Assembly (NCBI GenBank): GCA_028706105.1
Contig: JAQWCF010000009.1
Coordinates: 1-32,552, forward strand
Direction of reading: 5' to 3'
DNA from: Candidatus Margulisiibacteriota bacterium
GTDB lineage: Bacteria; Margulisbacteria; Riflemargulisbacteria; GWF2-35-9; DYQY01
DNA: 32,552 bases
The stretch's first letter is position 1, and every line of letters starts with the position of its first letter. The translations under genes and the position numbers were made by a program. The notes beneath the pieces were generated by a model. It worked only from the letters and a program-made list of their open reading frames with translations, did not search any database and was not told where the DNA came from. This document shows positions 1,320 to 29,766 of the stretch, piece after piece.

Positions 1320-1347
1320 TTTACTTTTTGAGTAAAGTAAATATAAT
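1320..1347 (+). promoter_or_regulatory. Promoter of the histidine kinase gene, predicted leaderless start
   Basis: TTTACT at 1320-1325 and a perfect TATAAT at 1342-1347, spaced 16 bases. Only 6 bases separate the -10 box from the ATG at 1354, so transcription would begin at or next to the start codon. Confidence 0.62.
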
Positions 1348-1353
1348 TAAGGT

Positions 1354-2919
1354 ATGACAAATAAAATAAAAGTATTTTCATTTAGATTTAAGTTTTTTTT
1401 AATAATTACTTTATTTTTTCTTTTTTTCTTGGCATCAGCCGTTGTCTTATTCAATAACTTTCAGAAGGACAGGCAGATAGATAGTAAATTAGCTTTTTAT
1501 GCGTATAATGCCAATGCTGTTCAAAATATATATACATCTTTTTCCAAACTTTTCTATTTGTCATATAAACATTCTGATAGTGTCACTTATGAGGCGAGAA
1601 GAGATTTTATTCATTTAATCAATAGTTTAGATTATCAATTTCACAATTTTCTTAGGAGTAGTAATCAATATGGTAGCTCCTATGTTGGAGTTATGCAGAA
1701 AGAATATGAGTTTTACATAAAAACTAAGGATTTAATTCAGATACTTTTTGAGAAGAAAATATCACAAGCAGAAAGACAAGCGATTGTTCGTCAGCTTAAC
1801 TTTCTTGAGGATAGCGTGTTGTCTGAATTGCATCGCATAACTAATGAGAACTATGCAGATGTTTCTTTTGTTTTTCGTCAAAGGACATTGTCGTATGAGA
1901 GGTTTTTAGTTTTTTATATAGGAGCACTTATCTTTTTTGTTATTTTTGGATTTGGATCTTTGATTTATTTTTATGTAAAAAACTTTTCTAGCCCATACAA
2001 GAAATTTTTAGCTTCAATAGATAGTGTTAAAAATGGAATTTTTGAAAAAACAATAGATGTCAATTCCAATAAGGAATTTAATGAATTAGCTGATGCTTTT
2101 AATGGTATGATGCAACGATTGTTTGAGATAGATAAACAATTAAAAGAGCATATAGATAACATTGAAGATATTGTAGAGGCAAAGACTAAAGAGTTAGAAG
2201 ATAAGAATAAACAGTTAATGGAGCTTGATGAGCTTAAAGATCAATTTCTGCAAAACATTTCGCATGAACTAAGAACACCATTAACTAGCATACTTGGCTA
2301 TATTGAAATAGTTCTTAACTATGGAAATATACCTAAAACACAAGAAACATTTTTGAGAATAGCACATGAAAATAGTTTATCTTTATTGAAGATTATTAAT
2401 AAATTGCTTTTGCTAAATGAGGTAGAGTCTGGAAATACAAGGCTCAATTTACAGATGGTAGATGTTAGCGTTTTAATTAACGACACAGTTAAGAAAATTA
2501 TGATACAAGCCGACAAAAAGAAATTAAAACTTAATGTTAATATTATTAAAGGTAAAAGCGTGAAAGATTTGCTGGTTGAAGTTGATATAGATAATATGGA
2601 GAGCGTTTTTTCCAATTTACTTTCCAATGCAATCAAGTTTACCGAAAAAGGACAAATAGATGTTAATGTTACTGGCGGGAAAGACAAGATAGTTGTTGAA
2701 ATTAAAGATAGTGGTATTGGTATAAAAAAAGAAGACCTGAAAATAATTTTTGATAAATTTAGGCAAGTGGATAATTCGTTAACAAAAATATATGACGGTA
2801 CTGGTCTTGGTTTATCTATCGTAAAAAACATCATCGAATTACACGGTGCTGACATTAGCGTAGATAGCGTTCTTGGAAAAGGAACGACATTTACTGTTAC
2901 TTTATATAAAAAACATTAA
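1354..2919 (+). CDS. Membrane sensor histidine kinase (HAMP-HisKA-HATPase), orphan
   Basis: Autophosphorylating sensor of a two-component system, 521 residues. The order is: short cytoplasmic N-terminus; membrane helix at about 13-32; a helical extracytoplasmic sensor of about 150 residues with no recognisable fold; second membrane helix at about 184-207; HAMP linker; a coiled coil with VEAKTKELEDKN; the HisKA dimerisation domain with phospho-acceptor His304 in NISHELRTP; and an ATP-binding domain with N box (NLLSNAIKF), G1 (DSGIGI), F box (FDKFRQ) and G2 (GTGLGLSI). No receiver domain is fused and no response regulator lies in this window, so its partner is elsewhere. A TATAAT box 6 bases before the ATG suggests its own leaderless promoter. 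queA follows after 3 bases. The signal it senses cannot be read from the sequence. Confidence 0.92.
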   Translation: MTNKIKVFSFRFKFFLIITLFFLFFLASAVVLFNNFQKDRQIDSKLAFYAYNANAVQNIYTSFSKLFYLSYKHSDSVTYEARRDFIHLINSLDYQFHNFLRSSNQYGSSYVGVMQKEYEFYIKTKDLIQILFEKKISQAERQAIVRQLNFLEDSVLSELHRITNENYADVSFVFRQRTLSYERFLVFYIGALIFFVIFGFGSLIYFYVKNFSSPYKKFLASIDSVKNGIFEKTIDVNSNKEFNELADAFNGMMQRLFEIDKQLKEHIDNIEDIVEAKTKELEDKNKQLMELDELKDQFLQNISHELRTPLTSILGYIEIVLNYGNIPKTQETFLRIAHENSLSLLKIINKLLLLNEVESGNTRLNLQMVDVSVLINDTVKKIMIQADKKKLKLNVNIIKGKSVKDLLVEVDIDNMESVFSNLLSNAIKFTEKGQIDVNVTGGKDKIVVEIKDSGIGIKKEDLKIIFDKFRQVDNSLTKIYDGTGLGLSIVKNIIELHGADISVDSVLGKGTTFTVTLYKKH

Positions 2920-2922
2920 TTA

Positions 2923-3960
2923 ATGGCTTCAATCTTTGATTTCGATTATGAGCTCCCTAAAGAGTTTGTTGCTCAATTACCTTCTGATAAACGTTCTGAT
3001 TCAAGGTTAATGGTCCTTGATAGAAAAAATAAAAAAATAACTAATAAGATTTTTAATCAACTAGAAGAGTTGTTGGAATCAGGAGATTTGTTAGTTTTCA
3101 ATAATGCAAAAGTTCTACCAGCAAGGCTTTATGGGAAAAAGCAAACAGGTGGTAAAGTAGAAGTTTTTTTACTGCAAGACAGAAGCAAAGAAGGAGAAAT
3201 TCTTTGGGAAGTCCTTGTTAAGCCAGGAATAAAAGTTGGAACAGTGGTTTGTTTTTCTTCTGATTTATCCTTTGAGGTTGTTAGTATTTTGGAAGAAGGT
3301 AAAAGATTAGTTAGCTTTCAAACAAATTTTGATTTTTTCGAAGTAATAGATAGGTTAGGTCAGATACCGTTACCACCATATATAAATTATGAGGAAACAA
3401 AAACAGATTTTTATAAACAAAGATACCAAACAGTTTTTGCTGAAAAAAAGGGGGCGGTAGCTGCTCCTACTGCTGGTCTGCATTTTAATAATGAGCTATT
3501 AGAGACATTAAAGAACAAGGGGATTGATAGTACATTTCTGACGCTTTATGTGGGTATTGGTACTTTTCGTCCGATTAAATGTGATAATTATTTAGAGCAT
3601 ATAATGCATAGTGAGAATTATGAAATTTCAACAGAAACCATAGATAAAATTAATGAAACCAAAAGCAAAGGCAAAAAAGTTATCGCTGTAGGGACAACGA
3701 CTACAAGGGTTTTAGAGGGGGTATTTCAGAAACATGGAAGACTAGAAGCAGGAGAAGGCTCAACAGACATTTTCATTTATCCTGGATTTGAGTTTAAGGT
3801 GGCTGACTCTATTATCACAAATTTTCATTTACCTAAATCATCATTATTGTTAATGATTTCAGCGTTTGCAGATAGAGATTTTATAATGCAATCATATGAA
3901 ACAGCAAAGAAGTTGGGGTATAGATTCTTTAGTTTTGGTGATGCGATGATAATTATTTAA
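2923..3960 (+). CDS. queA: S-adenosylmethionine:tRNA ribosyltransferase-isomerase
   Basis: Transfers and isomerises the ribosyl part of SAM onto 7-aminomethyl-7-deazaguanine in tRNA, giving epoxyqueuosine at wobble position 34. The 345 residues match the usual QueA length. Family signatures run in order: FDYELPKEFVAQLP at the N-terminus, NNAKVLPARL, GGKVEVFLL, the conserved AAPTAGLHF block, TLYVGIGTFRPI, HSENYEI, VGTTTTRVLE and TNFHLPKSSLLLM near the C-terminus. It starts 3 bases after the histidine kinase stop without an obvious ribosome site, so translation is probably coupled or weak. Its stop overlaps the stop of the converging CYTH gene in the four bases TTAA at 3957-3960. Confidence 0.96.
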   Translation: MASIFDFDYELPKEFVAQLPSDKRSDSRLMVLDRKNKKITNKIFNQLEELLESGDLLVFNNAKVLPARLYGKKQTGGKVEVFLLQDRSKEGEILWEVLVKPGIKVGTVVCFSSDLSFEVVSILEEGKRLVSFQTNFDFFEVIDRLGQIPLPPYINYEETKTDFYKQRYQTVFAEKKGAVAAPTAGLHFNNELLETLKNKGIDSTFLTLYVGIGTFRPIKCDNYLEHIMHSENYEISTETIDKINETKSKGKKVIAVGTTTTRVLEGVFQKHGRLEAGEGSTDIFIYPGFEFKVADSIITNFHLPKSSLLLMISAFADRDFIMQSYETAKKLGYRFFSFGDAMIII

Positions 3961-4427
3961 CGTAAGTTTATTCCGTAAATAGCTATATTTTTGTTTTTAT
4001 ATTTAACATCAGTAGTAACTTCTTCACCAAACCATTGTGGGGGAACAAAAGTAGCGCTTTCATCAACTGAGCAAAATTCTATTTCAGCTACGAATAAACC
4101 TTTGAGATGGCCATGATAGACGTCTAATTGAATGATAAATTCATTATATGGAAGATAATATCTAGTTTTTTTTATTCTTCTGCCTGAAGTAGTTGGCCAG
4201 AACTTGTTGTAGTGTTCAAGGGAGATTGTTATTTCGTACTCATCTCGGATAAGTCCTTTCCCTGTTTTAACTGTCATTGTGTATGTTTTATCCAGCTCTC
4301 TTAGTCTTACTTCTGTTCCATCTCCATCTACACTAATATATCCTTGGATTATTTCAGCATGTTTGTTTGAGAAGTAATCTGTTGGTAATTTTTTTATGAG
4401 AAATTTTCTTTCAATTTCTTTAATCAT
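3957..4427 (-). CDS. CYTH-domain protein, probable inorganic triphosphatase
   Basis: Member of the CYTH / triphosphate tunnel metalloenzyme superfamily, 156 residues, a normal length for a single-domain bacterial member. The signature ExExK is present as EIERK (Glu4, Glu6, Lys8), followed by tunnel strands with alternating charged residues: EVRLREL, YTMTVKTGKG, RDEYEITI, KTRYYLP, FIIQLDVYHG and VAEIEF. Superfamily members hydrolyse inorganic triphosphate or thiamine triphosphate, or form cAMP (class IV cyclases). The bacterial single-domain group is mainly triphosphatase, so that is the best guess, but the substrate is not settled by sequence. It diverges from pgi and converges on queA. A TATATT box sits 6 bases before its ATG, suggesting a leaderless mRNA. 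Confidence 0.85.
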   Translation of the reverse strand: MIKEIERKFLIKKLPTDYFSNKHAEIIQGYISVDGDGTEVRLRELDKTYTMTVKTGKGLIRDEYEITISLEHYNKFWPTTSGRRIKKTRYYLPYNEFIIQLDVYHGHLKGLFVAEIEFCSVDESATFVPPQWFGEEVTTDVKYKNKNIAIYGINLR

Positions 4428-4433
4428 AGATAA

Positions 4434-4439
4434 AATATA
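4434..4439 (-). promoter_or_regulatory. -10 box of the CYTH gene, predicted leaderless start
   Basis: Read on the minus strand, TATATT ends 6 bases before the ATG at 4427. No good -35 hexamer is found at 16-18 bases upstream, so only the -10 element is called. Confidence 0.45.
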
Positions 4440-4609
4440 ACCTATTTTTGAGGACTTTACTATACAAGGATGATTATGATATTGGCATACAAAAGAAACA
4501 AGTTTTTAGAAAACTTTATTTATTTGTTCGATATATAAAAGAATATAGTATATTATTAGGAAGAATAAAATTTAAAAACAGGGTAGTAAGTTTAGGTAAT
4601 AACATAAAT

Positions 4610-4616
4610 GGAGGGG
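4610..4616 (+). promoter_or_regulatory. Ribosome binding site that decides the pgi start
   Basis: GGAGGGG at 4610-4616, five bases before a TTG at 4622. It is the best ribosome site near the 5' end of pgi and places the start there. The reading frame stays open further upstream to another TTG at 4448, but without a comparable site. Confidence 0.75.
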
Positions 4617-4621
4617 TTACA

Positions 4622-6244
4622 TTGATTTCACAAACAGCGGAATGGATAAAGTTAGAAGAATTAGCAACAAAAGAGATTAATATTAAAGAACAATTTCAGT
4701 TGGATCCTCAACGTTTAGAGAAGATGAGTTTTTCTTTAGGCGAAATGTATTTGGACACGTCAAAGAATAGGGTTACGCAGGAAATTATGTTGGCGTTATA
4801 TAATTTAGCCAAGGTTTCTGATGTTAGTGATTGGGCTGACAAGATGTTTTCTGGTGAAATGATAAACACCACAGAAAAGAGAGCTGTTCTACACGTTGCT
4901 TTACGTAATGTTAAGTTAGATTCTAACAAGTTTATTCCTAAATCTTCGATTTTTACTGAAGGCAAAGACGTCATGCCAATGGTCTGTGATGTTTTAAATA
5001 GGATGTCAGTTTTTACTGATAAGGTCAGGAGTGGTCAGTGGAAGGGTGCAACTGGTAAAAGAATAAAGACAGTTGTGAATATTGGCATAGGAGGGTCTGA
5101 TTTAGGCCCGAAAATGCTTGTTAGGGCATTAGAACCGTATAGAACTAAAGAAATTACCTTCCATTTTGTTTCCAATGTTGATGGACAAGATATTTATGAA
5201 GTTTTACAAAAGTGTAACCCTGAAGATGCTTTGTTTATTGTTGCTTCTAAAACATTTACAACTCAAGAAACTATGCAAAATGCTGTTACCGCTAAGAATT
5301 GGTTCTTAGCTAAGATGAAAGATAAAGATGTTGCTAAACATTTTGTAGCAGCCTCTACAGCTGAAAAAGAAGTTTCTGAATTTGGGATAGACCTCGAGAA
5401 TATGTTTCCTTTTTGGGAATGGGTCGGAGGTAGATATTCTTCCCCATCAGCAATTGGTTTGCCAATCATGTTATCTATTGGTAAAGATGCTTATGCAGAT
5501 TTATTGGCAGGGTATAACCTTATGGATGAGCATTTTTTAAATACTCCAGTCGAAAAAAATATTCCCATGAACTTAGCGTTATTGGGTATTTGGTATAATA
5601 ATTTCCTTGGTGCTGAGACCATGGCAATGCTCCCTTATGACCAACGTTTAGAAAGATTTGCTGCCTATTTTCAACAAGGAGATATGGAAAGCAACGGTAA
5701 AGTTATTACCCGAGATGGTGAAAGAGTAGACTATCAAACTGGACCTGTTATTTGGGGCGAGCCGGGTACGAATGGGCAACATGCCTTTTATCAACTTATT
5801 CACCAAGGAACAAAGCTTATTCCTTGTGATTTTATAGCTTGTATTAATCCTGCACACCCGTATAGAAAAGAGCACCATGACAAGCTGATTGCGAATTTTA
5901 TAGCTCAGCAGGAAGCGTTAATGAATGGCAAGTCTAAAGAACAGCTTATCGCTGAAGGTTGTTCAGAAGAGCTTATTCCACACAAAACATTTGAAGGTAA
6001 TAGACCAAGTAATGCGATATTTTTGCAGGAATTATCGCCGAAGACCTTGGGTATGCTTGTTGCTATGTATGAGCATAAGATTTTTACTCAAGGGATAATT
6101 TGGCAAGTGCTGAGTTTTGACCAATGGGGTGTTCAATTGGGAAAAGAGTTAGCTGGTGTTATTTTAAAAGATATTGAGTCAGGTAGTCCAAGGTCACATG
6201 ATCCATCAACAACTGCACTAATTAAAAAATATCTAAAAGATTAG
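4622..6244 (+). CDS. pgi: Glucose-6-phosphate isomerase
   Basis: Interconverts glucose 6-phosphate and fructose 6-phosphate. The frame is open from 4448, but the 58 extra residues look unlike Pgi. A TTG at 4622 preceded by GGAGGGG gives 540 residues, close to the 549 of E. coli Pgi, beginning with the Pgi-like [10 protein letters not shown]. Signatures seen are [14 protein letters not shown] (sugar-phosphate loop), [43 protein letters not shown] with its catalytic Glu, [18 protein letters not shown] with its catalytic His, and the C-terminal [10 protein letters not shown] with its catalytic Lys. The 5' region is AT-rich and shared with the divergent CYTH gene; a pgi promoter could not be fixed there. 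No convincing terminator follows. Confidence 0.95.
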
Positions 6245-6331
6245 TTGGGGAAAGCTATTTTTGTAAATAAATTGTAAGGGCTGGCATTTTTTATTTTTTA
6301 TAAAATTAATTGCTTTATTGTTGATTTCTCA

Positions 6332-6370
6332 AGCTTTAGGCTTTTAGCTTTCAGCTTTTAGCCTTATAAT
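6332..6370 (+). promoter_or_regulatory. thrC promoter module, copy 1 of a repeated 39-base element
   Basis: Tandem-like AGCTTT(T)AG units (AGCTTTAGGCTTTTAGC...) run straight into TATAAT at 6365-6370, six bases before the thrC ATG. It matches 18942-18980 upstream of glyS at 34 of 39 positions without gaps. A usable -35 is not clear; TTTTAG sits at the right distance but fits poorly. Confidence 0.7.
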
Positions 6371-6376
6371 ACCTTT

Positions 6377-7426
6377 ATGCATTATATGGGACTTATTAAT
6401 AGATATCGTGAGTATTTGCCAGTTTCGGCTAGCACTAAGATTATTACATTAAATGAGGGGAATACTCCACTTATTCCAGCTGTTCATATTTCTTCTTTGC
6501 TTGGTAAAGGCATAAAAGTGTATTTTAAGTACGAAGGCCTTAATCCAACAGGTTCATTTAAGGACCGTGGAATGACTATGGCTATTACCAAAGCAGTTGA
6601 AAAGGGAATGAAGGCAGTTATGTGTGCTTCTACGGGCAACACTTCTGCTTCTGCTTCTGCTTATGCTGCCAGAGCTGGCATTAAGTCTGTTGTAATAATT
6701 CCCGAAGGCAAGATTGCCTTAGGTAAGTTAGCTCAAGCGATGATGCATAATGCGCTTGTTATAGAAATTGAGGGTAACTTTGACGATGCGCTTAATACAG
6801 TGAAAGAAGTTACAAGTATGTATCCAATCGAGTTGGTTAACTCTATTAATCCTTTTAGAATAGAAGGGCAAAAGACAGCCGCTTTTGAGATTATTGATGC
6901 GTTAGGTTTTGCTCCTACGTATCATTCATTACCAGTAGGAAATGCTGGTAATATTACTGCATATTGGAAGGGATATACTGAGTATAGAGATAATAAAAAG
7001 GCACGAAGTGTCCCAAAGATGATAGGGTTTCAGGCAGAGGGTTCTTGCCCTATTGTAAAGGGACATATTTTTGATAAACCAGAAACAGTAGCAACAGCTA
7101 TTCGCATTGGAAATCCAGCAAGTTGGAAACAAGCAGAAACAGCGAGAGATGAGTCTTTTGGGCTTATTGATAGCGTAACTGATGAGGAAATATTGTCAGC
7201 GTTTAAATTGTTAGCAGCAACGGAAGGCGTTTTTTGCGAACCAGCTTCTGCAGCATCTGTTGCTGGAATATTAAAAAAGAAAGAGATGTTTAAATCTGGG
7301 GACGTTATCGTTTGTACTCTGACTGGTCATGGCTTAAAAGACCCAGACAATGCAATCAAGATGTCTGAAAAAACACATAAAGTATCAAATTCACTTAGTG
7401 AAATAGTAAAATTAATAGGGGTGTGA
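6377..7426 (+). CDS. thrC: Threonine synthase
   Basis: PLP enzyme converting O-phosphohomoserine to threonine and phosphate. The 349 residues fit the short bacterial/archaeal type rather than the longer E. coli or plant forms. The N-terminus GLINRYREYLPV and LNEGNTPLIPA are typical. The PLP Schiff-base lysine is Lys62 in NPTGSFKDRGM, followed by ASTGNTSASASAYAARAG (cofactor phosphate and substrate contacts), LPVGNAGNITAYWKGY, and EPASAASVAGI near the C-terminus. It has its own promoter with TATAAT six bases upstream and is followed after one base by an Lrp-type regulator. A second ATG at 6386 is possible as a start, but the first ATG fits the -10 distance better. Confidence 0.93.
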   Translation: MHYMGLINRYREYLPVSASTKIITLNEGNTPLIPAVHISSLLGKGIKVYFKYEGLNPTGSFKDRGMTMAITKAVEKGMKAVMCASTGNTSASASAYAARAGIKSVVIIPEGKIALGKLAQAMMHNALVIEIEGNFDDALNTVKEVTSMYPIELVNSINPFRIEGQKTAAFEIIDALGFAPTYHSLPVGNAGNITAYWKGYTEYRDNKKARSVPKMIGFQAEGSCPIVKGHIFDKPETVATAIRIGNPASWKQAETARDESFGLIDSVTDEEILSAFKLLAATEGVFCEPASAASVAGILKKKEMFKSGDVIVCTLTGHGLKDPDNAIKMSEKTHKVSNSLSEIVKLIGV

Positions 7427-7427
7427 A

Positions 7428-7925
7428 ATGATTATTAAAGAAAAACTGACTCAAATCTTAAAGGAAAACTCCAGATTGGCTAATGCTGATATCGCAAAGA
7501 TGATTGGTATTTCAGAGAAGGAAGTTGATAGTTTAATCAAAGAACTGGAAGCTGATAAGATTATTTTAAAATACACAGCGGTAATTAATGATGAATTATT
7601 AGACAACGGCCAGTCCGTTACTGCTTTTATTGAAGTAAAAGTTACTCCTGAAAGAGACAAAGGTTTTGATAGTTTAGGTGAACGGCTACAAAAATTTTCT
7701 GAAGTTAAGTCAGTCTATTTGATGAGTGGAGCATATGATATCCTAGTAGTAGTAGAGGGTAAATCACTGAAAGATATTGCCTCCTTTGTTTCAAAAAAAC
7801 TTTCTCCAATAGGCAGAATACTTTCCACTGCAACACATTTTCAATTAAAGAAATATAAAGAAAACGGCGTGATTATGGGTACTATTGAATGTGAAGGTTC
7901 CAGCCGTTTAAATGTTGCATTCTAG
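7428..7925 (+). CDS. alaR: Lrp/AsnC-family transcriptional regulator, AlaR-like
   Basis: 165 residues. An N-terminal winged helix-turn-helix (about 1-50, IKEKLTQILKENSRLANADIAKMIG) is followed by the RAM/AsnC ligand-sensing alpha-beta domain (about 60-140, with VKVTPERDKGFD, VKSVYLMSGAYDILVVVEG and STATHFQLKKYK). The match to B. subtilis YugG/AlaR is recognisable from memory, including the position immediately upstream of an AlaT-like aminotransferase. It probably controls that operon in response to an amino acid, perhaps alanine (an inference). It starts one base after the thrC stop with an AGGGGTG-like site, so it is co-transcribed with thrC. An effector other than alanine is possible. Confidence 0.87.
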   Translation: MIIKEKLTQILKENSRLANADIAKMIGISEKEVDSLIKELEADKIILKYTAVINDELLDNGQSVTAFIEVKVTPERDKGFDSLGERLQKFSEVKSVYLMSGAYDILVVVEGKSLKDIASFVSKKLSPIGRILSTATHFQLKKYKENGVIMGTIECEGSSRLNVAF

Positions 7926-7934
7926 GAGCTATAA

Positions 7935-9080
7935 ATGAAAGAGTTATCTGCCAGACTTAAGCAAGTAAAGCCTTCAGGCATCCGAAAGTTTTTTGATTTA
8001 GTTCTTAACAGTAAGGACGTCATTTCTCTTGGTGTTGGCGAGCCTGACTTCCCAACTCCTTGGCACATAACAGAGCAAGGCATTTATCATTTAGAAAAAG
8101 GCCATACCTCGTATACTTCCAATATGGGATTATTGGAGTTAAGGAAAGAAATCAGTAATGATTTACAGACACGCTTTTCTGCTGAATATGATCCCAAAGA
8201 TGAAATAATGATCACCGTTGGTGTGTCAGCTGGGCTTGATTTGACATTTAGAACACTGCTTGACCCTGGAGATGAAATAATAATTCCAGTGCCAAGTTAT
8301 GTTTGTTATGAGCCATTGGCCTATCTAGCTGGTGGGGTTCCTGTTATTGTAGACACTAGGTCCACTGATTTAATTCTCACAAAAGAGGCAATTGAAAAGC
8401 ATATTACGCCGAAGACAAAGGCTGTTCTTATTTCTTACCCTAGTAATCCTACAGGTAAAATGATTAACAAAGAACAACTTATGAGCATCATTGAGACATG
8501 CAAGAAACATGACCTTTGGCTTATTTCTGATGAGGTTTATGGCGATTTGGTTTATGAGATGGAACCACTTTCTGCTTCTACTTACATTAAAGACAGGTTA
8601 ATCCTTCTCAATGGTTTCTCCAAAGGATACGCGATGACTGGCTGGAGAATTGGCTATGTGGCTTGTCCTAGAGAAGTTCTTAACGAAATGGTTAAAATAC
8701 AGCAGTATAACGTTTTATGTGCTCCAATAATGTCGCAATATGCAGCTATTGAAGCATTAAGGAATGGACGTGCGGAGTTAAAAAGAATGAAAAATTCGTA
8801 TGAGTTAAGACGTAATTATTTTTATGAATCATTAGTTGAAATAGGATTTGATGTGCAAAAACCAGAAGGAGCGTTTTATATGTTTCCCAATGTGAAAAAG
8901 TTTGGTCTTAGCGCTGAAGATTTTTCAATGAAACTTTTACAAGAAGGTAGAGTAGCAGTAGTTCCTGGCAATGCCTTTGGAACTATGATTGATGATCATG
9001 TGCGTTGTTGTTACGCCTGCAGCTTGGATGAGCTCAAAGAGGCCATTGTCAGAATCAATAAATTTATTAGTACTTTATAG
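7935..9080 (+). CDS. alaT: Class I/II PLP aminotransferase, AlaT-like
   Basis: 381 residues, fold type I aminotransferase. SLGVGEPDFPTPWH at the N-terminus binds the substrate carboxylate region. Asn171 (SNPTGK), Asp199 (ISDEVYGD) and the Schiff-base lysine Lys230 (GFSKGYAMTGWRIGY) form the PLP site, and the C-terminal arginine lies in DHVRCCYACS. The sequence and the adjacent Lrp-family gene resemble B. subtilis yugG-yugH (alaR-alaT), so pyruvate/alanine transamination with glutamate is the best guess. Related subgroups act on aspartate or aromatic amino acids. It starts 9 bases after the regulator with a GGAG site six bases before the ATG. Confidence 0.9.
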   Translation: MKELSARLKQVKPSGIRKFFDLVLNSKDVISLGVGEPDFPTPWHITEQGIYHLEKGHTSYTSNMGLLELRKEISNDLQTRFSAEYDPKDEIMITVGVSAGLDLTFRTLLDPGDEIIIPVPSYVCYEPLAYLAGGVPVIVDTRSTDLILTKEAIEKHITPKTKAVLISYPSNPTGKMINKEQLMSIIETCKKHDLWLISDEVYGDLVYEMEPLSASTYIKDRLILLNGFSKGYAMTGWRIGYVACPREVLNEMVKIQQYNVLCAPIMSQYAAIEALRNGRAELKRMKNSYELRRNYFYESLVEIGFDVQKPEGAFYMFPNVKKFGLSAEDFSMKLLQEGRVAVVPGNAFGTMIDDHVRCCYACSLDELKEAIVRINKFISTL

Positions 9081-9130
9081 ATATTTAAATTAAATCGTTT
9101 AAAAATTCCTTTATTGGGCATAACTTAGTT

Positions 9131-9745: not shown

Positions 9746-9791
9746 AACTTGAATGAACCTGTGGAGCAAATTCCAAAATACAATTGTTTAG

Positions 9792-9805
9792 CAAATAGCT
9801 ATTTG
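9792..9805. promoter_or_regulatory. Perfect 14-base palindrome upstream of apgM, possible operator
   Basis: CAAATAGCTATTTG is its own reverse complement and lies 43 bases before the proposed apgM -35 box. It could bind a dimeric regulator. It has no T-tract and little GC, so a terminator is unlikely. Palindromes of this size can arise by chance in AT-rich DNA. Confidence 0.4.
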
Positions 9806-9847
9806 GGGCGGGCAAATAAAACAATGCTTGGGCAAGTGAAGTCGAAG

Positions 9848-9876
9848 TAAACAAATCAACAAATAAACGTTATAAT
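9848..9876 (+). promoter_or_regulatory. apgM operon promoter, predicted leaderless start
   Basis: TAAACA at 9848-9853, a 17-base spacer, and a perfect TATAAT at 9871-9876. The ATG follows after 7 bases, so the mRNA would have no or almost no leader. It heads the seven-gene run up to 16920. Confidence 0.62.
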
Positions 9877-9883
9877 AAAACAC

Positions 9884-12039: not shown

Positions 12040-12048
12040 CTAAAAGAA

Positions 12049-12900: not shown

Positions 12901-12905
12901 CAGCA

Positions 12906-13832
12906 ATGAGAGATTATTATGCAAAAGTATTAATCGCTTTAGGTAAGAAAAACAAAGATATTGTTGTTTTAGATGCAGACTTATCTTGCTCAACCAGAAC
13001 AGAGAAGTTTGCCAAAGAGTTTCCGGATAGATTTTTTAATGCCGGAATAGCTGAACAAGATTGTATTGGAATGTCTGCAGGCTTTGCTTGTATGGGTAAA
13101 ACAGTTTTTGCAAGTTCCTTTGCAATGTTTATTACTGGGAGAACATGGGAGCAGATTAGAAATTCAGTTTGTTATCCTAATCTTAATGTAAAAGTATGTG
13201 CCACTCACGCAGGAATAACTGTGGGAGAAGATGGAGCTTCGCATCAGGCACTGGAGGATATCGCTTTAATGAGAATACTTCCCAATATGAGAGTTATAGT
13301 TCCGGCTGATGCTCTAGAAGCGGAACAAGCAATCCATTTTGTTGCCAAAGAATCTGGTCCTTTTTATGTAAGAATGAGCCGAGGAGCAACTCCTGTTATT
13401 TTTAACGAAGGGGAATGTGATTTTCAGCTAGGCAAGAATAAAGTTTTGAAAGAAGGTAAAGATGTAACAATAATGGCATCTGGAATAATGGTTAAGATGG
13501 CTTTAGATGCTGCAGATGTTTTGGAGAAAGAACATGAAGTTTCTGCCGCAGTTGTTAATGTTTCTAGTATTAAACCTCTAGATGAAGAAAATATTTATAA
13601 AATGGCTGTTAGCACAGGTGCATTTGTTACAGCTGAAGAACATTCAATCTTTGGTGGTGTTGGTAGTGCTATAGCAGAAGTAACTGCTCGCAAGTGTCCT
13701 GTTCCAATCGAAATGCTTGGTATCGCAGGAGTATTCGGGGAGAGCGGGAAACCAGATGCCCTATTAGAGAAGCATGGGCTGAATGTAAAAGGCATTGTTT
13801 CTAAAGCATTACTTGCTGTCTCACGCAAATAA
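12906..13832 (+). CDS. tkt: Transketolase, C-terminal (Pyr and transketolase-C) subunit
   Basis: Second half of the split transketolase, 308 residues. A pyrimidine-binding domain carries DADLSCSTRTEKFAKEFPDRFFNAGIAEQDCIGMSAGFA, where the Glu of AEQ activates thiamine. THAGITVGEDGASHQALEDIALMR and FYVRMSRG follow, and then the transketolase-C fold (VNVSSIKPLDEENI, TAEEHSIFGGVGSAIAE). The frame is open back to a TTG at 12882, but AGGAG at 12893-12897, eight bases before the ATG at 12906, supports this start. The next gene, ftsE, begins on the base after its stop. It needs the subunit encoded at 12049 for activity. Confidence 0.93.
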   Translation: MRDYYAKVLIALGKKNKDIVVLDADLSCSTRTEKFAKEFPDRFFNAGIAEQDCIGMSAGFACMGKTVFASSFAMFITGRTWEQIRNSVCYPNLNVKVCATHAGITVGEDGASHQALEDIALMRILPNMRVIVPADALEAEQAIHFVAKESGPFYVRMSRGATPVIFNEGECDFQLGKNKVLKEGKDVTIMASGIMVKMALDAADVLEKEHEVSAAVVNVSSIKPLDEENIYKMAVSTGAFVTAEEHSIFGGVGSAIAEVTARKCPVPIEMLGIAGVFGESGKPDALLEKHGLNVKGIVSKALLAVSRK

Positions 13833-14510
13833 GTGATTAGGCTAAGGAACGTTACTAAAAAATATCAAGACTTTGTTGTTCTTAACCATATAAATCTTCA
13901 TATAGCTAAAGATGAGTTTGTTTTTTTAGTTGGGCCTACTGGTGCAGGAAAAACTACTATTTTGAGCCTTTTAACAAGAGAGCAAACTCCTGAATCTGGC
14001 AAAATATACATGGGGATGACTAGTATTAATGAGCTTAATGAGAAGCAAGTTTCTAATTTGAGAAAAAACATAGGATTTGTTTTTCAAGATTTTAAGATAC
14101 TAAATAGAACTATTTATGAAAACTTAGCTTATGTTTTAAAAATTCAAGGTGAACGAAAGAAGATTATCGTAGAGAAGATCGAACGGGTGGCAGAGTTAGT
14201 AGGGTTGGAAAGCAAGCTACACTGTTATCCTTATCAGCTTTCAGGTGGTGAACAGCAAAAGGCGTGTATCGCGCGTGCAATAATTAACAAACCTCCAGTT
14301 TTACTTGCTGATGAGCCAACAGGTAATCTTGATCCTGATGCGTCACTTGAAATAATCCAGTTAATGTCAAAAATCAATTTAGACAATACGACTGTAGTTG
14401 TTGCAACACATGACAAGGCAATAGTCGATCTTATGAGAAAAAGAGTAATTGCTTTACATGGTGGCAATATAATCCGAGATCAGCAAATGGGCAGTTATCA
14501 TGAGTGTTAG
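13833..14510 (+). CDS. ftsE: Cell-division ABC transporter ATP-binding protein FtsE
   Basis: Cytoplasmic ATPase that with FtsX forms a mechanotransmission complex controlling septal peptidoglycan hydrolases. 225 residues: Walker A GPTGAGKTT at 34-42, Q-loop VFQDFKIL, ABC signature LSGGEQQKACIARA at about 136-149, Walker B VLLADEPTGNLDP at about 156-168, and the H-loop histidine in VVATHDKAI. The start is GTG directly after the transketolase stop, so translation is probably coupled. The last 11 bases overlap ftsX. The FtsX-like neighbour distinguishes it from related LolD/MacB-type ATPases. Confidence 0.95.
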   Translation: MIRLRNVTKKYQDFVVLNHINLHIAKDEFVFLVGPTGAGKTTILSLLTREQTPESGKIYMGMTSINELNEKQVSNLRKNIGFVFQDFKILNRTIYENLAYVLKIQGERKKIIVEKIERVAELVGLESKLHCYPYQLSGGEQQKACIARAIINKPPVLLADEPTGNLDPDASLEIIQLMSKINLDNTTVVVATHDKAIVDLMRKRVIALHGGNIIRDQQMGSYHEC

Positions 14511-15402
14511 AGTTTTAATTTTTTTATTTGAAGAGTCAATTAGCTCAATTAAACAGAATGCTGTCATGACTTTCTTATCTTTTCTTACGGTAACACTTTC
14601 ACTATCTGTGTTAGCAATGTTTTTGATAGTGTTTATGAACATTAATTCCATGATAACGGCTATAGGTGATGACCTTAATATTTCTGCTTATTTGACTCGT
14701 GATGTCACAGAAGCGCGGTTGCGCCAAGTTAGTGATCAGATAAAGATGATTAAAGGTGTAAAATCCTTATCTGTAGTGACTAAAGAATCTGCTTGGGAAG
14801 ACCTTAAAGGCAAGCTTCAATACCAAAAAGAAATAATCGAGCTTATCCCTAGTAATCCTTTGCCAGACTTGATAATCATTAAATTAAAGAAGGTTAATAA
14901 CACTGATAGTGTTTTAAAAGAATTGAAGTTTATAAAAGATATTGAAGAAGTAAGACATGGTAAAACTATTGTTAATAAATTTAGAAGCATTGTTAAGTTG
15001 TTTGATTTAATAGGAGGTTTAATCGTTATCTTGCTACTTTTTTCAACATTTACAATCATTTCAAGTACTATCAATATCACGATGATAGCTAAAGAAAAAG
15101 AAATAAAAATAATGAAATTAGTGGGTGCAACCAATGGTTTTGTGGAATCTGTTTTTGTCTTAGAAGCTTTTATTATTGGGCTGCTAGGTTCTTTAATGGC
15201 AGTTGGTCTTATTAATTTGATATTTTTTCTTGTAAATAGTAATTTACAACAGGTCTTTCATTTTGCTTATGTTTTTACAAAGCAAATGAATTTTGTTTCT
15301 TTAAATATTTTTATTATCAGTATAGGATTAGCAATTAGTGTTAGTGCCAGTTTTTTTTCAGTAAAAAGTTTATTAAAGAATATTTTAAAAAAGTATAGCT
15401 AG
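14500..15402 (+). CDS. ftsX: Cell-division membrane protein FtsX
   Basis: Permease-like partner of FtsE, 300 residues, inner membrane. It shows the FtsX layout: a cytoplasmic N-terminal helix (ISSIKQNAVMTFLSFLTV), membrane helix 1 at about 20-45, an extracytoplasmic domain at about 50-155 (LNISAYLTRDVTEARLRQ is the usual start of this domain), then three more membrane helices at about 165-190, 220-245 and 265-290. EKEIKIMKLVGATNGFVESVFVLEA is the conserved FtsX coupling segment. The ATG lies inside the end of ftsE. FtsX activates amidase regulators or CHAP/NlpC hydrolases in other bacteria; no such hydrolase is in this window. Confidence 0.94.
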   Translation: MSVRVLIFLFEESISSIKQNAVMTFLSFLTVTLSLSVLAMFLIVFMNINSMITAIGDDLNISAYLTRDVTEARLRQVSDQIKMIKGVKSLSVVTKESAWEDLKGKLQYQKEIIELIPSNPLPDLIIIKLKKVNNTDSVLKELKFIKDIEEVRHGKTIVNKFRSIVKLFDLIGGLIVILLLFSTFTIISSTINITMIAKEKEIKIMKLVGATNGFVESVFVLEAFIIGLLGSLMAVGLINLIFFLVNSNLQQVFHFAYVFTKQMNFVSLNIFIISIGLAISVSASFFSVKSLLKNILKKYS

Positions 15403-15411
15403 GAGGTAAAA

Positions 15412-16920
15412 ATGTTAAATTTTTTGAGGGAGAGAGCTAAAGAAATATTAACAATAACAGTCGTGTTATTTGTCTTATCATTTTTAGGAATTGGGGCGTA
15501 TTCTTTTTTGAATCAAGGTAATGGTGAAGAAAACAAAGAGGAAGCAACTTCTGCCTTAGGTTTGTTAAATGGGAAACCATTGGATGGTTATTATTATAAT
15601 AGGCAATTTAATCAAGCTTTTTCTAATATTCCTAGTGAGCAACGGATGCTTTTGGATCCGGATGTAGTGGATTATTATCGTTATCAGGCCTTTCAAGAAA
15701 CAGTAGCAAACATGTTAATGATGGACGAAGCTAATCGAGAAGGGATAAAAGTTTTCCCTCAGGAGTTTAATTATAGGATGGAACAGCTAGTTAAGGCTTA
15801 TGGCTTAAAGAATGTAGGTGCGTTAAAGAAGCTCATAAAAGATAATAAGATAGAGTGGAAAGTTTTTAAAGAACAACAGAAGAATGATATTATTGTTTCA
15901 AAATTTTTAGGTGGTATCACTAGCAGGGTTAGAGTTACACCTTTGGATAGGGAAATGGCTTTTACGGAGGCTAAAGTTAGACATATTTTGATAAAAGTTG
16001 ACCAACAAGCAACAGATAATATGGAAGAAGACCTAATTAAATTAAAGAAAGCAGAAACAATTTATGAAATGGTTCTGAGTAACAAAAAAAACTTTGCGAA
16101 AATAGCAGAAAAATATTCAGAGGATACTGCGTCAGCTGAAAAAGGTGGGGATTTGGGCTGGGTCGGTCGAGGACAGATGGTCCCAGAATTTGAGTCCATG
16201 TTGCATACACTAACAAAGGGTGAAATAGGTGGTCCAATAAGAACTATTTACGGGTACCATATTATTTTAGTTGAAGATAAGAGAGAAAAAGATAAACCAG
16301 CAGACCTGACAGATGAACGTGTAGATCAGATAATCTTGCAACAAAAGCAACAGGAAGCCATTCAGGAATGGCTGAAGCCACTAAAGTTGTCAGCTAATAT
16401 CGAAATAATAGATTCTCAAATAAAGGCCTATGATTACAAAGTTAATCAGCAGTATGAAGAGGCTTTAATTGAGTATCAAAAAGCGTTGATGGCTAATAGT
16501 GAACTACTTACTTATACTCAGATTGCTAGGATGCTAGATAGATTGGGCAACAAAGATGAAGCAATAAGAGCTATCAGGAAAGCGCTGATACTGCAAAATA
16601 GGCTTCAAGGATACCGTTACCCTTCATTATATTTTGCAGGGCTAGATCTTTTTATTAAGTATAAACTAACTGATCTTTATTCTAGTTTAATAGATGATGC
16701 TTTGGTTACATTCAAAGGGAAAGAAGTAGTTTTGAGTGTTTTAGATAAGAATTATAAAAACAAAATGACCAAAGAACAGAAATCTAATCTAGATGAACAA
16801 TTAAAGTTAATTGATGATCAAAAGAAGGAAGCAGAAGCAACGAAAAAGAAAGATTCACTTAATCCTTTTTCAGCATTAGAGGCGTTGGATAGCTTAACAG
16901 AAAATAGTTTAGCAAAATAG
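15412..16920 (+). CDS. Membrane-anchored parvulin peptidyl-prolyl isomerase with C-terminal TPR region
   Basis: Probable extracytoplasmic foldase, 502 residues, with a strong AGGAGG site five bases before the ATG. An N-terminal uncleaved-looking membrane anchor (about 10-33, ending GIGAYSFL) is followed by a SurA/PpiD-like helical chaperone part (about 50-180) and one parvulin domain at about 186-288 (VRHILIKV, AEKYSEDTASAEKGGDLGWVGRGQMVPEFE, and GGPIRTIYGYHIILVEDK). The family consensus residues of the parvulin active site are largely present. The remaining about 210 residues hold TPR-like helices (YEEALIEYQKAL, DRLGNKDEAIRAIRKAL) and a charged low-complexity tail with KKEAEATKKKDS. It closes the operon after ftsEX. 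PrsA, PpiD and SurA are the nearest named relatives; the TPR extension is not part of those classic forms. Confidence 0.88.
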   Translation: MLNFLRERAKEILTITVVLFVLSFLGIGAYSFLNQGNGEENKEEATSALGLLNGKPLDGYYYNRQFNQAFSNIPSEQRMLLDPDVVDYYRYQAFQETVANMLMMDEANREGIKVFPQEFNYRMEQLVKAYGLKNVGALKKLIKDNKIEWKVFKEQQKNDIIVSKFLGGITSRVRVTPLDREMAFTEAKVRHILIKVDQQATDNMEEDLIKLKKAETIYEMVLSNKKNFAKIAEKYSEDTASAEKGGDLGWVGRGQMVPEFESMLHTLTKGEIGGPIRTIYGYHIILVEDKREKDKPADLTDERVDQIILQQKQQEAIQEWLKPLKLSANIEIIDSQIKAYDYKVNQQYEEALIEYQKALMANSELLTYTQIARMLDRLGNKDEAIRAIRKALILQNRLQGYRYPSLYFAGLDLFIKYKLTDLYSSLIDDALVTFKGKEVVLSVLDKNYKNKMTKEQKSNLDEQLKLIDDQKKEAEATKKKDSLNPFSALEALDSLTENSLAK

Positions 16921-16991
16921 CTTAGCAGAGTATAACGCCTTTTTTATTGAGCTTGAGAGCTTATGGTTAAATAGCTAGGGGATATTTTTTA

Positions 16992-17585
16992 TTAACTACA
17001 ATATTTGCTTATGAAAAAATTGTATAATAGTTTATTATTTTTTTTTGCCAACAAAGGTAGTATAAATTTAAAAATAATTGATTTAGGGTTAAACCTAAAA
17101 GTATCTAAGATGATTTTGTAAGAGATAATCTGCGGGTAAGCTTTTGCTAAATGAAATAGTTCCATGTCTACAGTGTAAGCGTTGTTGAACTGTCTAGATA
17201 GTTTTTTCTTGTTCTGAAGGCTATTTACTGTGATATTTTCAACATGACTGCTGGAATCAAGAATCAATTTTTCTTTTCCATTGTTGCCAAAGCTTTTGCC
17301 TATTTTTAGAATTGTAGACGCTTTAATGCTTTTAAGTGCTCCTGCATTGCCTAGGTTGAAGGTTTTTTCTGCTTTAATGTCTTGAAGAAATTCATTTTGG
17401 TTTTTTAGAGTTCGCTTAATTGCATTTTTCCCTACACCAGTAACAATGAGTAGTATTCTTTTGTTATTTATTGTAATTAAAAAAACTCTGTCATTCACCT
17501 TTTTTGCTTTCTTAAGGAAAGAGGAAACTTCTCTTTTTTCAGCAGCAAAAACAAGATAATCAATCTTTTTGTTTCCCATAATCAT
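16992..17585 (-). CDS. Nucleosidase/phosphorylase-superfamily protein (MTA/SAH nucleosidase-like), divergent
   Basis: 197 residues. Weak but ordered similarity to the purine nucleoside phosphorylase / MTA-SAH nucleosidase fold: VTGVGKNA at about 48-55, NLGNAGAL at 78-84, VDMELFHLAKA at 139-149 (family VEME, which contacts ribose), and YKIILDTF with Asp161 where the catalytic ISD aspartate is expected. The histidine/phenylalanine-rich regions of classic MTAN are not evident, so the substrate may be different; futalosine and hopanoid-pathway hydrolases are relatives. Its start shares one base with the stop of the DUF1015 gene (TAATG), so the two are translationally coupled. A second in-frame ATG six bases later is an alternative start. 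Confidence 0.72.
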   Translation of the reverse strand: MIMGNKKIDYLVFAAEKREVSSFLKKAKKVNDRVFLITINNKRILLIVTGVGKNAIKRTLKNQNEFLQDIKAEKTFNLGNAGALKSIKASTILKIGKSFGNNGKEKLILDSSSHVENITVNSLQNKKKLSRQFNNAYTVDMELFHLAKAYPQIISYKIILDTFRFNPKSIIFKFILPLLAKKNNKLLYNFFISKYCS

Positions 17586-18835
17586 TAGTCTTCTAGACTG
17601 TGGATTATAAGTCCGCTTCGAAGTTTAGGTTCGAACCACGTTGTTTTAGGTGGCATTATCATATTATTGTCGGCTATTGCCATTAGTTGCTCCATGGAAA
17701 CAGGATACATCGCAAAGGCAGCTTTCATTTCTCCAGAGTCTACTCTTTTTTCTAGTTCTTGTAGTCCCCTGATTCCTCCAACAAAGTCGATCCTTTTGCT
17801 TGTTCTTAAGTCATGAATATTAAGCAATGGTTCTAATACAAACTTTGTAAGAGTTGTGACGTCAAGCGCATCAATTGGGTCTTTGTCGTTGTAAGTGTTT
17901 TCTTTAAAAGAAAGCTTATACCAGTTGTTATCTAGGTAAAGACCCATGATGTGTTTGTTTTCTGGTCGATAAGTCTCTTTACCCTTGTTTTCTATAATAA
18001 AATTTTGAGAAAGTTTTACTAAGAACATGTCAGGAGTAAGTCCATTCAAATCTTTAATAAGGCGATTATAGTCAAAAATTTTTAATTGATTATCTGGGAA
18101 AAGAACAGTTAAAAAATAATTGAATTCTTCTTTTCCAGTGTAGCTTGGTTGTTTTTCTCTAAGTTCTTTGCCTACTAATGCTGCTGCGGCACTCCTATGG
18201 TGTCCATCTGCAACATAGGTATAGGGTATATTTGTGAAAATTTTGGTAATTTCATTAATGGAATCTTTGCTTGTAATAAGCCAAAAAGAATGAGTAATTC
18301 CATCCTCTGAGGTGAAGTTATATTCAGGTTCAAACTTACTAATTGTTTTCTCAAGAATTTGGTCAATTCTAGGGTTTGCTGGATATGCCAAGAAAATAGG
18401 CTCAATGTTAGCATTATTTATTTTGACATGGACCATTCTGTCTTCTTCTTTGTCTTTTCTGGTTAGCTCGTGTTTCTTGATGTTTCCATTTAAGTAGTCG
18501 TCGATGCTAGAGCAAGCCACTAGTCCAATCTGTGTTCTTCCTTCCATTTTTTGTGAGTAAATATAGTATTTTTCTTCTTTGTCTTGAATAAGCCAATTGT
18601 TTTCTTTAAATTTATTGAAATTCTCTAGCGCTTTATCATACACTTGCTGTGAATGTTCATCAGTGCCGACAGGGAAGTCTATTTCTGGCTTTATTATGTG
18701 ATAGAGAGACATGTTGTTGTCTTTGGCTTCAGTGCGTGCTTCTTCAGAGTTTAAAACGTCGTATGGACGTGAAGCTATCTTTGTTTCTAATCCTTTTTGT
18801 GGTCTAATCCCTTTGAACGCTTTTATTGTGACCAT
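17585..18835 (-). CDS. DUF1015-family conserved protein with DGHHR motif
   Basis: 416 residues, the usual length for the family (PF06245), whose function is not established. Signatures are AFKGIRP at the start, ASRPYDVLNSEEAR, SLYHIIKPE, KKHELTRKDKEEDR at about 120-133, and YVADGHHRSAAAA with DGHHR at 210-214. IDFVGGIRGLQELEKRV and the C-terminal MPPKTTWFEPKLRSGL follow. DGHHR also occurs in the ParB/SerK-type fold, where it binds nucleotide in serine kinases, so a small-molecule kinase-like role is a reasonable guess but not shown. AAGGAG five bases before the ATG is one of the strongest ribosome sites in the window. It heads a two-gene operon with the nucleosidase-like gene and diverges from glyS. 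Confidence 0.88.
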   Translation of the reverse strand: MVTIKAFKGIRPQKGLETKIASRPYDVLNSEEARTEAKDNNMSLYHIIKPEIDFPVGTDEHSQQVYDKALENFNKFKENNWLIQDKEEKYYIYSQKMEGRTQIGLVACSSIDDYLNGNIKKHELTRKDKEEDRMVHVKINNANIEPIFLAYPANPRIDQILEKTISKFEPEYNFTSEDGITHSFWLITSKDSINEITKIFTNIPYTYVADGHHRSAAAALVGKELREKQPSYTGKEEFNYFLTVLFPDNQLKIFDYNRLIKDLNGLTPDMFLVKLSQNFIIENKGKETYRPENKHIMGLYLDNNWYKLSFKENTYNDKDPIDALDVTTLTKFVLEPLLNIHDLRTSKRIDFVGGIRGLQELEKRVDSGEMKAAFAMYPVSMEQLMAIADNNMIMPPKTTWFEPKLRSGLIIHSLED

Positions 18836-18941
18836 GTTAACTCCTTAGCCGAAAGTCCTTCTCGCTTGAGCGTGAATCTGTTAGTGATTTTCTCACAGAG
18901 ATAGAAATAGCAAAAGGACAAAATTAAGCATTCATTGTCAT

Positions 18942-18980
18942 AGCTTTAGGCTTTTAGCTTTTAGCTTTAGGCTATATAAT
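18942..18980 (+). promoter_or_regulatory. glyS promoter module, copy 2 of the repeated 39-base element
   Basis: AGCTTTAGG and AGCTTTTAG units lead into TATAAT at 18975-18980, seven bases before the glyS ATG. It matches the thrC copy (6332-6370) at 34 of 39 positions. The similarity continues across both start codons as CTTTATGnATTAT. A glycine T-box leader is excluded here for lack of space. Confidence 0.7.
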
Positions 18981-18987
18981 AATCTTT

Positions 18988-21018
18988 ATGAATTATCTAT
19001 TTGAAATTGGTACAGAAGAAGTCCCCGCAAGGTTTTTACAAAGCTTAATAAGTGATTTAGTTGAGAATGTTACAAAGAGACTAGAGAAAATAACTTACCA
19101 TGAAGTTGAAACCTTTGCGACTTATAGAAGATTAGCTTTGATCATAAAAGGACTATCAAAAGAACAGTCCTCGAAACAAGAAGAGATAAAAGGCCCACCA
19201 GAAAAAGTTGCTGTTAATGAAGATGGAAGTTACACAAAAGCAGGAGAAGGTTTTTTGAAAAAGTTTGGAGCAACTGAGGGTGTTATCCGTGAGGGATATT
19301 TGTATGTTAGTTTTTTTGAAAAAGGCAAACTTACTAAAGATATTTTAGGAAAGATTGTTGTTGATGCGCTCTCTGCTTTGTACCTACCAGTAGCCATGAA
19401 ATGGGGAAATGAGACACAGAAGTTTTATAGACCAGTGCATTGGATAGTTTCAATATTAGATGACACCATTTTGCCTTTAGAATTTGCAGGAATCAAAGCA
19501 GGAAATACCACTTGCGGACATCGGTCTTTTAGTAAAGGACTAAATATTAATGGGGCGGAATTATTAATTGACTTACCTGAAAATTACGAAAATTTACTTT
19601 TAAAAAATAACGTCAAAGCTTCTTTCTTAAAGAGAAAGGAATATATTAAAAGTCAACTTATTAAAGTGACAAGCAATGTCGTTCTTGATGAAGTCTTACT
19701 TAATGAGGTTTGTGGATTAGTTGAAAATCCTGTAGTTTTACAAGGCGAATTTGAAGAAGAATTTTTGCAAATTCCAGACAGAATCCTGATTACATCTATG
19801 CAAAAAAATCAGAAATATTTTCCACTAATCGAACAAGGGAAATTAACAAATAAATTTTTAATGGTTGCCGACAATGTAAACGAAAAAAACAGTAAAAATA
19901 TTATTGCTGGTAATCAAAAAGTTTTAAGAGCTAGACTTTTTGATGCAAAATTTTTCTTTGAAGAAGATACTAAATATGATTTTGAACATTTTAACAATCA
20001 GTTAAAGACAATAACTTTTCAACAAAAATTGGGAAGTATTTATGAGAAAGTTGCGAGGAATATTTTAGTTGCTGAGTTTATAATTAAGAAACTAAAGCTA
20101 GATTCAAAACAAAGAGAAACTGTTTTGGCAATTACGGGAAATGCGAAGGCAGATTTGGCAACAGGTATGGTTAATGAGTTTGCTGAGTTACAAGGCTATG
20201 TTGGACAGCAATATGCTTTAAAATGGGGTATCGATAAAAACATTGCAGATAGTATTTATGAGCATTATCTTCCTTCCTTTGCTGGTGATGTGTTGCCAAG
20301 TTCTTTAATTGCATCTATTGCTTCTGTTTCTGATAAAATTGAAACTATTGTTGGTCAGTTTGTAATAGGAAAAATACCCTCTGGTTCTCAAGATCCTTTT
20401 GGGTTAAGACGACAAGCTAATGGCATTGTCAGAATATTTTACGAAAGAGATTATTTCCCCTTTTCTTTAGAGGAGCTATTGGAAGCCACGGTTAGTTTGT
20501 ATAAAAACTTTGATCTTTCCAAGGACAATATTTCCAAATTATATGATTTTTTTGAACAAAGAATAGAGCAGTATTTGAAAGACCAAAATGTTGCAAATGA
20601 TGTAATTCAAACTGTGAAGTCGTTCAATATTCTCTTGCTTAAGAAAAGATTAAATTTTATTTCAATTCTTTCTGCCTCAGAAAAGAGGAAAGATGTTTTA
20701 GAAGCAATAGTCAGAGTTCTTAATATTACCAAAGATGCTAATTTGGGAGAATTAAAGGTTATAGACCCCTTTTTGTTTGAGGATGCTTCTGAGAGAGCAC
20801 TTTTTGATACCTTTAAATCATTAACAAAAATAGAAAGAGCATGGGATGATTGTCTTGTTCAAGAGTGGAAGCTTTTAGCAAAAACAATAAGTAACTTTTT
20901 TGAAGCAGTTATGGTCATGGTTGATGATGAAAAGATAAAGAATAATAGACTGAGTTTGTTGCATAATATGAGGATGTATTTTGAACAATTTGGAGATTTG
21001 AAGACTTTACAGTTTTAG
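18988..21018 (+). CDS. glyS: Glycyl-tRNA synthetase beta subunit
   Basis: Beta subunit of the alpha2beta2 bacterial glycyl-tRNA synthetase; it carries tRNA binding, while the alpha subunit (GlyQ) carries aminoacylation. 676 residues, close to the usual 690. The typical N-terminus YLFEIGTEEVPARFL is followed by ATYRRLALIIKGL, the conserved MKWGNETQKFYRPVHWIVSI block, HRSFSKG, LVENPVVLQGEFEEEFLQIP, QKYFPLIEQGKL, VLRARLFDAKFFFEED, TGMVNEFAELQGYVGQQYAL, HYLPSFAGDVLPSS and SQDPFGLRRQANGI, with a DALR-like anticodon-binding end. No glyQ is in the window, so the two subunits are encoded apart, or glyQ lies elsewhere. The 39-base module and TATAAT indicate its own promoter. Its stop overlaps the stop of converging murB in TTAG at 21015-21018. 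Confidence 0.96.
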   Translation: MNYLFEIGTEEVPARFLQSLISDLVENVTKRLEKITYHEVETFATYRRLALIIKGLSKEQSSKQEEIKGPPEKVAVNEDGSYTKAGEGFLKKFGATEGVIREGYLYVSFFEKGKLTKDILGKIVVDALSALYLPVAMKWGNETQKFYRPVHWIVSILDDTILPLEFAGIKAGNTTCGHRSFSKGLNINGAELLIDLPENYENLLLKNNVKASFLKRKEYIKSQLIKVTSNVVLDEVLLNEVCGLVENPVVLQGEFEEEFLQIPDRILITSMQKNQKYFPLIEQGKLTNKFLMVADNVNEKNSKNIIAGNQKVLRARLFDAKFFFEEDTKYDFEHFNNQLKTITFQQKLGSIYEKVARNILVAEFIIKKLKLDSKQRETVLAITGNAKADLATGMVNEFAELQGYVGQQYALKWGIDKNIADSIYEHYLPSFAGDVLPSSLIASIASVSDKIETIVGQFVIGKIPSGSQDPFGLRRQANGIVRIFYERDYFPFSLEELLEATVSLYKNFDLSKDNISKLYDFFEQRIEQYLKDQNVANDVIQTVKSFNILLLKKRLNFISILSASEKRKDVLEAIVRVLNITKDANLGELKVIDPFLFEDASERALFDTFKSLTKIERAWDDCLVQEWKLLAKTISNFFEAVMVMVDDEKIKNNRLSLLHNMRMYFEQFGDLKTLQF

Positions 21019-29736: not shown

Positions 29737-29766
29737 ATTATAAGGCTATAACAGAAGCAAATGCAA
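29737..29766 (-). promoter_or_regulatory. Promoter of the murE-murB cluster, short or no leader
   Basis: On the minus strand, TTGCAT (29766-29761), an 18-base spacer, and a perfect TATAAT (29742-29737). The murE ATG lies 9 bases after the -10 box and no Shine-Dalgarno sequence is visible, so the leader is zero to a few bases. It overlaps the 5' region of the divergent sigma-factor gene. Confidence 0.55.

Follow-up and report, generated by a model that had tools for sequence, protein, structure and literature searches.

In a survey of 953 bacterial genomes, leaderless genes of the TA-led type were patchily distributed among bacterial groups (Zheng et al., 2011; PMC3160421). Such genes have a Pribnow-like box some 10-12 bp before the start and no Shine-Dalgarno (SD) site, and they occur beside SD-led genes, as we observe here; in low-GC genomes the box is a full TATAAT, sometimes with an extended TG (PMC3160421). 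For Deinococcus-Thermus, it was reported that a -10 motif located a few bp before an ORF is a leaderless promoter, which is the arrangement predicted here, and that an added -35 element strengthens it (Zhong et al., 2025; PMC12340547). The leaderless transcriptome of mycobacteria also coexists with SD-led genes, as in our genome (PMC3898074, PMC4633059). As for translation, a review (PMC9031893) describes the known route for leaderless mRNAs as 70S- or IF2-dependent.

We analyzed a stretch of 32,552 nucleotides, hereafter the window (contig 9, bases 1-32,552), from an assembly of Margulisbacteria sensu lato (Candidatus Margulisiibacteriota) of 1.93 Mb in 147 contigs with a GC content of 34%. 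The closest relatives of its thrC gene came from Marinamargulisbacteria and Margulisbacteria GWF2_35_9. The original prediction placed -10-type hexamers 6 to 9 nt before six ATG codons lacking SD sites; all six hexamers were read at these positions, and none of the six starts has an SD site (Table 1). In our view, leaderless or near-leaderless mRNAs (leaders of 0-3 nt), transcribed from sigma-70-type promoters placed at the start codon, constitute the best explanation of the sequence evidence, with a probability of about 0.88. The sites of the histidine kinase, thrC, apgM, glyS and murE are well supported. The CYTH site is the weakest of the six, as its hexamer is TATATT, it is without a good -35 and its spacing is 12 nt in the sister genome (G028), and it was set aside. 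A seventh TATAAT-N6-ATG of the window (32537-32523, minus strand) meets a stop after 14 codons and opens no gene. Those of the proposed SD-led contrast genes that were checked also behaved as announced: SD sites were confirmed at alaT and at the parvulin, DUF1015 and EF-hand genes, and GGAGGGG precedes the probable start of pgi (4622-6244), which is probably TTG 4622 and not the first TTG of the ORF at 4448.

Table 1. Features of the window and related arrays elsewhere; positions refer to the window unless a contig is given.
Feature	Position	Strand	Remark
-10 box TATAAT	1342..1347	+	6 nt before histidine kinase ATG 1354
Predicted leaderless start codon, histidine kinase	1354..1356	+	sister ortholog ATG nearly in the same place
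Weak -10 box TATATT	4434..4439	-	6 nt before CYTH ATG 4427
Contrast gene pgi: SD GGAGGGG and probable start codon TTG	4611..4624	+	
Heptad array (GCTTTNN)4	6333..6358	+	runs into thrC -10 box; at orthologous site in sister G028
-10 box TATAAT	6365..6370	+	6 nt before thrC ATG 6377
-10 box TATAAT	9871..9876	+	7 nt before apgM ATG 9884
Heptad array (GCTTTNN)4	18943..18968	+	runs into glyS -10 box; also at sister glyS
-10 box TATAAT	18975..18980	+	7 nt before glyS ATG 18988
-10 box TATAAT	29737..29742	-	9 nt before murE ATG 29727; predicted leader about 2 nt
Further heptad arrays	G000 C1:19147, C2:9013, C3:4229, C15:8353, C40:14634, C43:1165, C82:7347, C110:1180		

Some other features of the window deserve mention. 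MurE (29727-28567, minus strand) starts only four residues before its conserved D-[ST]-R-K motif; this unusually short N-terminus is common to its relatives. Further along, a SigB/SigF-like sigma factor (29797-30561) lies beside an RsbU-like PP2C phosphatase (31757-30780), both assigned by sequence recognition, and the pair suggests that an alternative sigma factor is controlled by partner switching. The sister genome has the segment from the histidine kinase to CYTH (C31:40762-43826) at a distance of about 33 kb from its thrC (near C31:77350), and the gene order of the window is therefore broken between CYTH and thrC (1354-4427 versus 6377).

The distance between box and start was studied in a 789-kb sample covering about 41% of the genome, and patterns were also counted over the whole genome. 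The sample comprised a first batch of 396 kb, which contains the window and in which the pattern was first seen, and a holdout of 393 kb. Genes in the sampled stretches were called by hexamer score, and start codons rest on ORF scoring and homology, not on proteomics. A -10-like hexamer was defined as a TANNNT that differs from TATAAT at no more than one position, and expected numbers were taken from spacers 12-35. The sharp peak in -10-to-start distance that the original prediction implied was present at the heads of gene clusters, where boxes at spacers 6-7 numbered 20 against 4.1 expected in the first batch (P = 1e-8) and 14 against 3.8 in the holdout (P = 4e-5). Spacer 9 was also raised at heads, with 5 and 4 boxes in the two batches against about 2 expected in each. 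No clear peak at spacers 6-7 was seen for operon-internal genes (4 versus 1.9 and 1 versus 2.1 expected), and a -10-like box 5-10 nt before the start was found at 48 of 267 heads versus 10 of 269 operon-internal genes (Fisher P = 4e-8). The peak concerned ATG only, as GTG and TTG starts, in the sample pooled with the thrC loci of relatives, showed no clear distance peak. Among ATGs at spacer 6, 23 of 38 open a called gene (16/26 in the first batch, 7/12 in the holdout), while at other spacers this is mostly so in 0-25% of cases. Over the whole genome, TATAAT-N6-ATG occurs 102 times versus 29 for the reversed pattern, a 3.5-fold excess; the alternative N16 distance control shares its codon phase with N7 and not with N6, which makes N6/N16 ratios only indicative.

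After subtraction of background, spacers 6, 7 and 9 leave an excess of about 31 heads among the 267, or close to 12%, and comparison with operon-internal genes gives about 14%. This share is a floor, as degenerate boxes would add more. Leaderless initiation had been proposed as a normal mode of this organism alongside SD-led translation; it is supported as a mode, which is a minority one predicted at about one in 8 heads, with only some 12-14% of heads above background and many heads leadered.

Three features that played no part in the selection of the sites were examined. For the first two, 57 predicted leaderless starts were superimposed at their -10 boxes and compared with 6,841 in-gene -10-like sites. 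T was present at -23 in 44 of the 57 starts, versus 30% of in-gene sites (binomial P = 2e-13), and at -22 in 36 of them, versus 34% (binomial P = 6e-6). These two positions match a -35 TT spaced exactly 17 bp from the -10 box, which the starts show as a set; taken singly, the sites of the window have poor -35 boxes. The G of an extended -10, at -2, occurred in 26/57 versus 19% of in-gene sites (binomial P = 4e-6). Finally, SD matches of at least 4 nt preceded 10% of the predicted leaderless starts (7% after shuffling), 59% of the other and doubtful heads (shuffled 35%) and 50% of operon-internal genes (shuffled 33%). The -35 TT at 17 bp, the extended -10 G and the SD absence support the idea that these boxes are true promoters. 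The anti-SD at the 3' end of the 16S rRNA is intact, GGATCACCTCC (GGATCACCTCCTTTCT), and SD matches are in excess elsewhere; SD initiation is therefore kept, and the predicted leaderless genes would be the exception.

Orthologs within the order mostly keep a box 6-10 nt before the ATG while the flanks diverge. For the histidine kinase, TATAAT was found at 6-10 nt in 5/5 order relatives in which the start was found, and in the sister ortholog the ATG lies 6 nt behind the same -10, at a nearly identical position. A -10-like box precedes thrC in six of the seven relatives examined, including a Saganbacteria genome, mostly 6-7 nt before the ATG (at locus L024 the automated reading was 9, and 7 by eye); the seventh has an SD site in its place. 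The glyS box is located at 6-7 nt in 5/6 order relatives, the sixth having AAGGAG and a GTG start. For murE, TATAAT or TATACT stands 7-10 nt before the start in 14 of 22 relatives across the phylum, often preceded by an extended TGn, and leaders would be about 0-3 nt if transcription starts 7-8 nt after the box. The apgM box is kept in the sister and, at 6-7 nt, in the distant families f21 and f28, and is lacking in the rest of the order. Of 14 relatives searched for CYTH, the sister alone yielded an ortholog. Because start conservation in relatives, the 17-bp-spaced -35 TT and the SD absence agree with the position peak, the main inference is supported.

Sigma-70 holoenzyme starts transcription about 7-8 nt downstream of the -10 box. 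A sigma-70-type promoter so near the start codon would thus initiate at the A of the ATG with spacers of 6-7, and 1-3 nt before it with spacers of 8-10, giving a leaderless or near-leaderless mRNA. The expectation of strictly leaderless mRNAs at all these heads consequently stands for spacers 6-7 and is modified for murE and the other cases at spacers 8-10, where a leader of 1-3 nt is predicted. The 5'-terminal AUG would probably be recognised by 70S ribosomes or by 30S-IF2, whereas operon-internal genes and many other heads would use SD sites. Box position, the -35 at 17 bp, the preference for AUG, the lack of SD sites and the conservation are read directly from the sequence; the transcript 5' ends and this ribosomal route are inferred.

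Other explanations were considered. The boxes might be real promoters serving true starts located further downstream, behind ordinary leaders, the proximal ATG being incidental. This would fit the histidine kinase, where the coding score alone chose a start at 1429, 75 nt downstream of ATG 1354. We judge it improbable, as only ATG starts, and only spacers 6-7 and 9, show the peak, and as orthologs keep both the proximal ATG and its spacing; in addition, murE starts only a few residues before its conserved motif, which leaves no plausible downstream start. Slightly less probable still is an extra promoter upstream, giving a leadered transcript and reducing the proximal -10 to a minor role. AT-rich intergenic DNA does hold other -10-like hexamers (the background is about 2 per position over 140 heads), against which stand the starts without SD and a conservation centred on the proximal box.

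That the boxes are chance AT-rich hexamers of a 34% GC genome appears highly improbable. TATAAT is frequent, with 48 occurrences in the window on both strands, and the CYTH site could be one of these chance matches, but for the set as a whole the reversed-pattern and other-distance controls, the -35 signal and the conservation argue otherwise, and the holdout peak contradicts it. Several points weigh against leaderless or near-leaderless initiation itself: the CYTH site is not conserved, the apgM box is shared with the sister and not with the rest of the order, many heads are leadered, and in two relatives of the order (G029 and G033) the N6 excess over the whole genome is small. We retain such initiation as the preferred reading.

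Heptad arrays precede two of the window promoters (Table 1). A scan for perfect periods returned no period-7 arrays because the heptads are degenerate; the arrays were found by a motif scan. With overlapping matches counted, the motif GCTTTNNGCTTTNNGCTTT is present 33 times in this genome, corresponding to about 14 distinct arrays, with 0 matches in the reversed control; it occurs 7 times in the sister and 0 times in the other six genomes from the order and class. Ten of the roughly 14 arrays run into TATAAT or TATACT with an ATG 6-10 nt further on (nine at 6-7 nt, lysS at 10), one runs into the -10 box of a gene with an SD site and three into none. In most arrays the register is fixed, the last GCTTT supplying the first T of the -10 box. 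Arrays are near-identical at several unlinked loci and, within the order, were seen only in this genus; those of the sister thrC and glyS have the same place and a different make-up. In the sampled stretches, they precede 6 of 67 predicted leaderless heads versus 1 of 286 others (P = 2e-4). The genes behind them, recognised from N-terminal sequence and not by family search, are thrC, homoserine dehydrogenase, a citramalate/isopropylmalate synthase-like gene, glyS, lysS, cysS, ribulose-phosphate epimerase, a QueD-like protein, an ABC ATPase and a small zinc-ribbon-like protein; many of these serve amino-acid synthesis or tRNA charging.

The simplest reading is a promoter module whose -35 region would fall within the heptad array. 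It is also possible, if rather doubtful, that a dispersed module, (GCTTTTA)n GCTTTATAAT with its heptads in -10 register, drives about ten mostly leaderless genes of amino-acid synthesis and tRNA charging, perhaps as a regulon or as a genus-specific family of promoters tuned by copy number. The nearest published relatives in kind that we found are the intergenic heptamer direct repeats of Beggiatoaceae and Cyanobacteria, with the unit TAACTGA, proposed to be translational sites (PMC4679880). Like our arrays, they consist of short direct repeats of seven bases close before start codons, but they sit only a few nt from the start codon (PMC4679880), whereas here the unit is another and the array ends at the -10 box; it would therefore lie outside the mRNA. 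Also, a second array type, (ATTGAACG)n, of period 8, abuts TATAAT or TATACT before two or three predicted leaderless starts, and one heptad array, followed by no -10 box, is located immediately downstream of the 16S rRNA gene (G000 C97:548-573, L228).

Beyond this genome, many members of families f25, f26, f28 and others show a 5- to 25-fold N6 excess relative to the reversed control, and the excess is strong in Gastranaerophilales-type genomes (G076-G080; loci L033, L039, L042, L060, L097), e.g. 128 versus 30. With the same control it is absent in genomes of families f10 and f12, and it is small in several Omnitrophota and other genomes. This patchiness agrees with the earlier survey (Zheng et al., 2011; PMC3160421). 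The excess is also seen in Saganbacteria-like families of the phylum, which, with Gastranaerophilales, belong to lineages discussed as neighbours of Cyanobacteria (PMC6349859), and it bears on the age of leaderless initiation in this region of the tree. In Margulisbacteria, tools built around SD sites probably miscall gene starts, and the -10 box offers an independent start signal.

Margulisbacteria do not figure in the list of groups with leaderless genes given by Zheng et al. (2011; PMC3160421), and we found no report joining them with leaderless genes in the open-licence literature. A known kind of mechanism is predicted here in a lineage for which we found no earlier report. The leaderless fraction looks lower than the 20-40% of Actinobacteria and Deinococcus-Thermus (PMC3160421). 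In Deinococcus-Thermus the dominant motif is TANNNT, at about 30% of ORFs and with reporter evidence (PMC12340547), and mycobacterial leaderless transcripts were mapped experimentally at high GC (PMC3898074, PMC4633059), while our case, at 34% GC and with a near-complete TATAAT and a -35 TT, is known from sequence alone. With a box about 10 bp upstream, a position peak, SD absence and an AUG start, the genes described here show the marks of the TA-led class.
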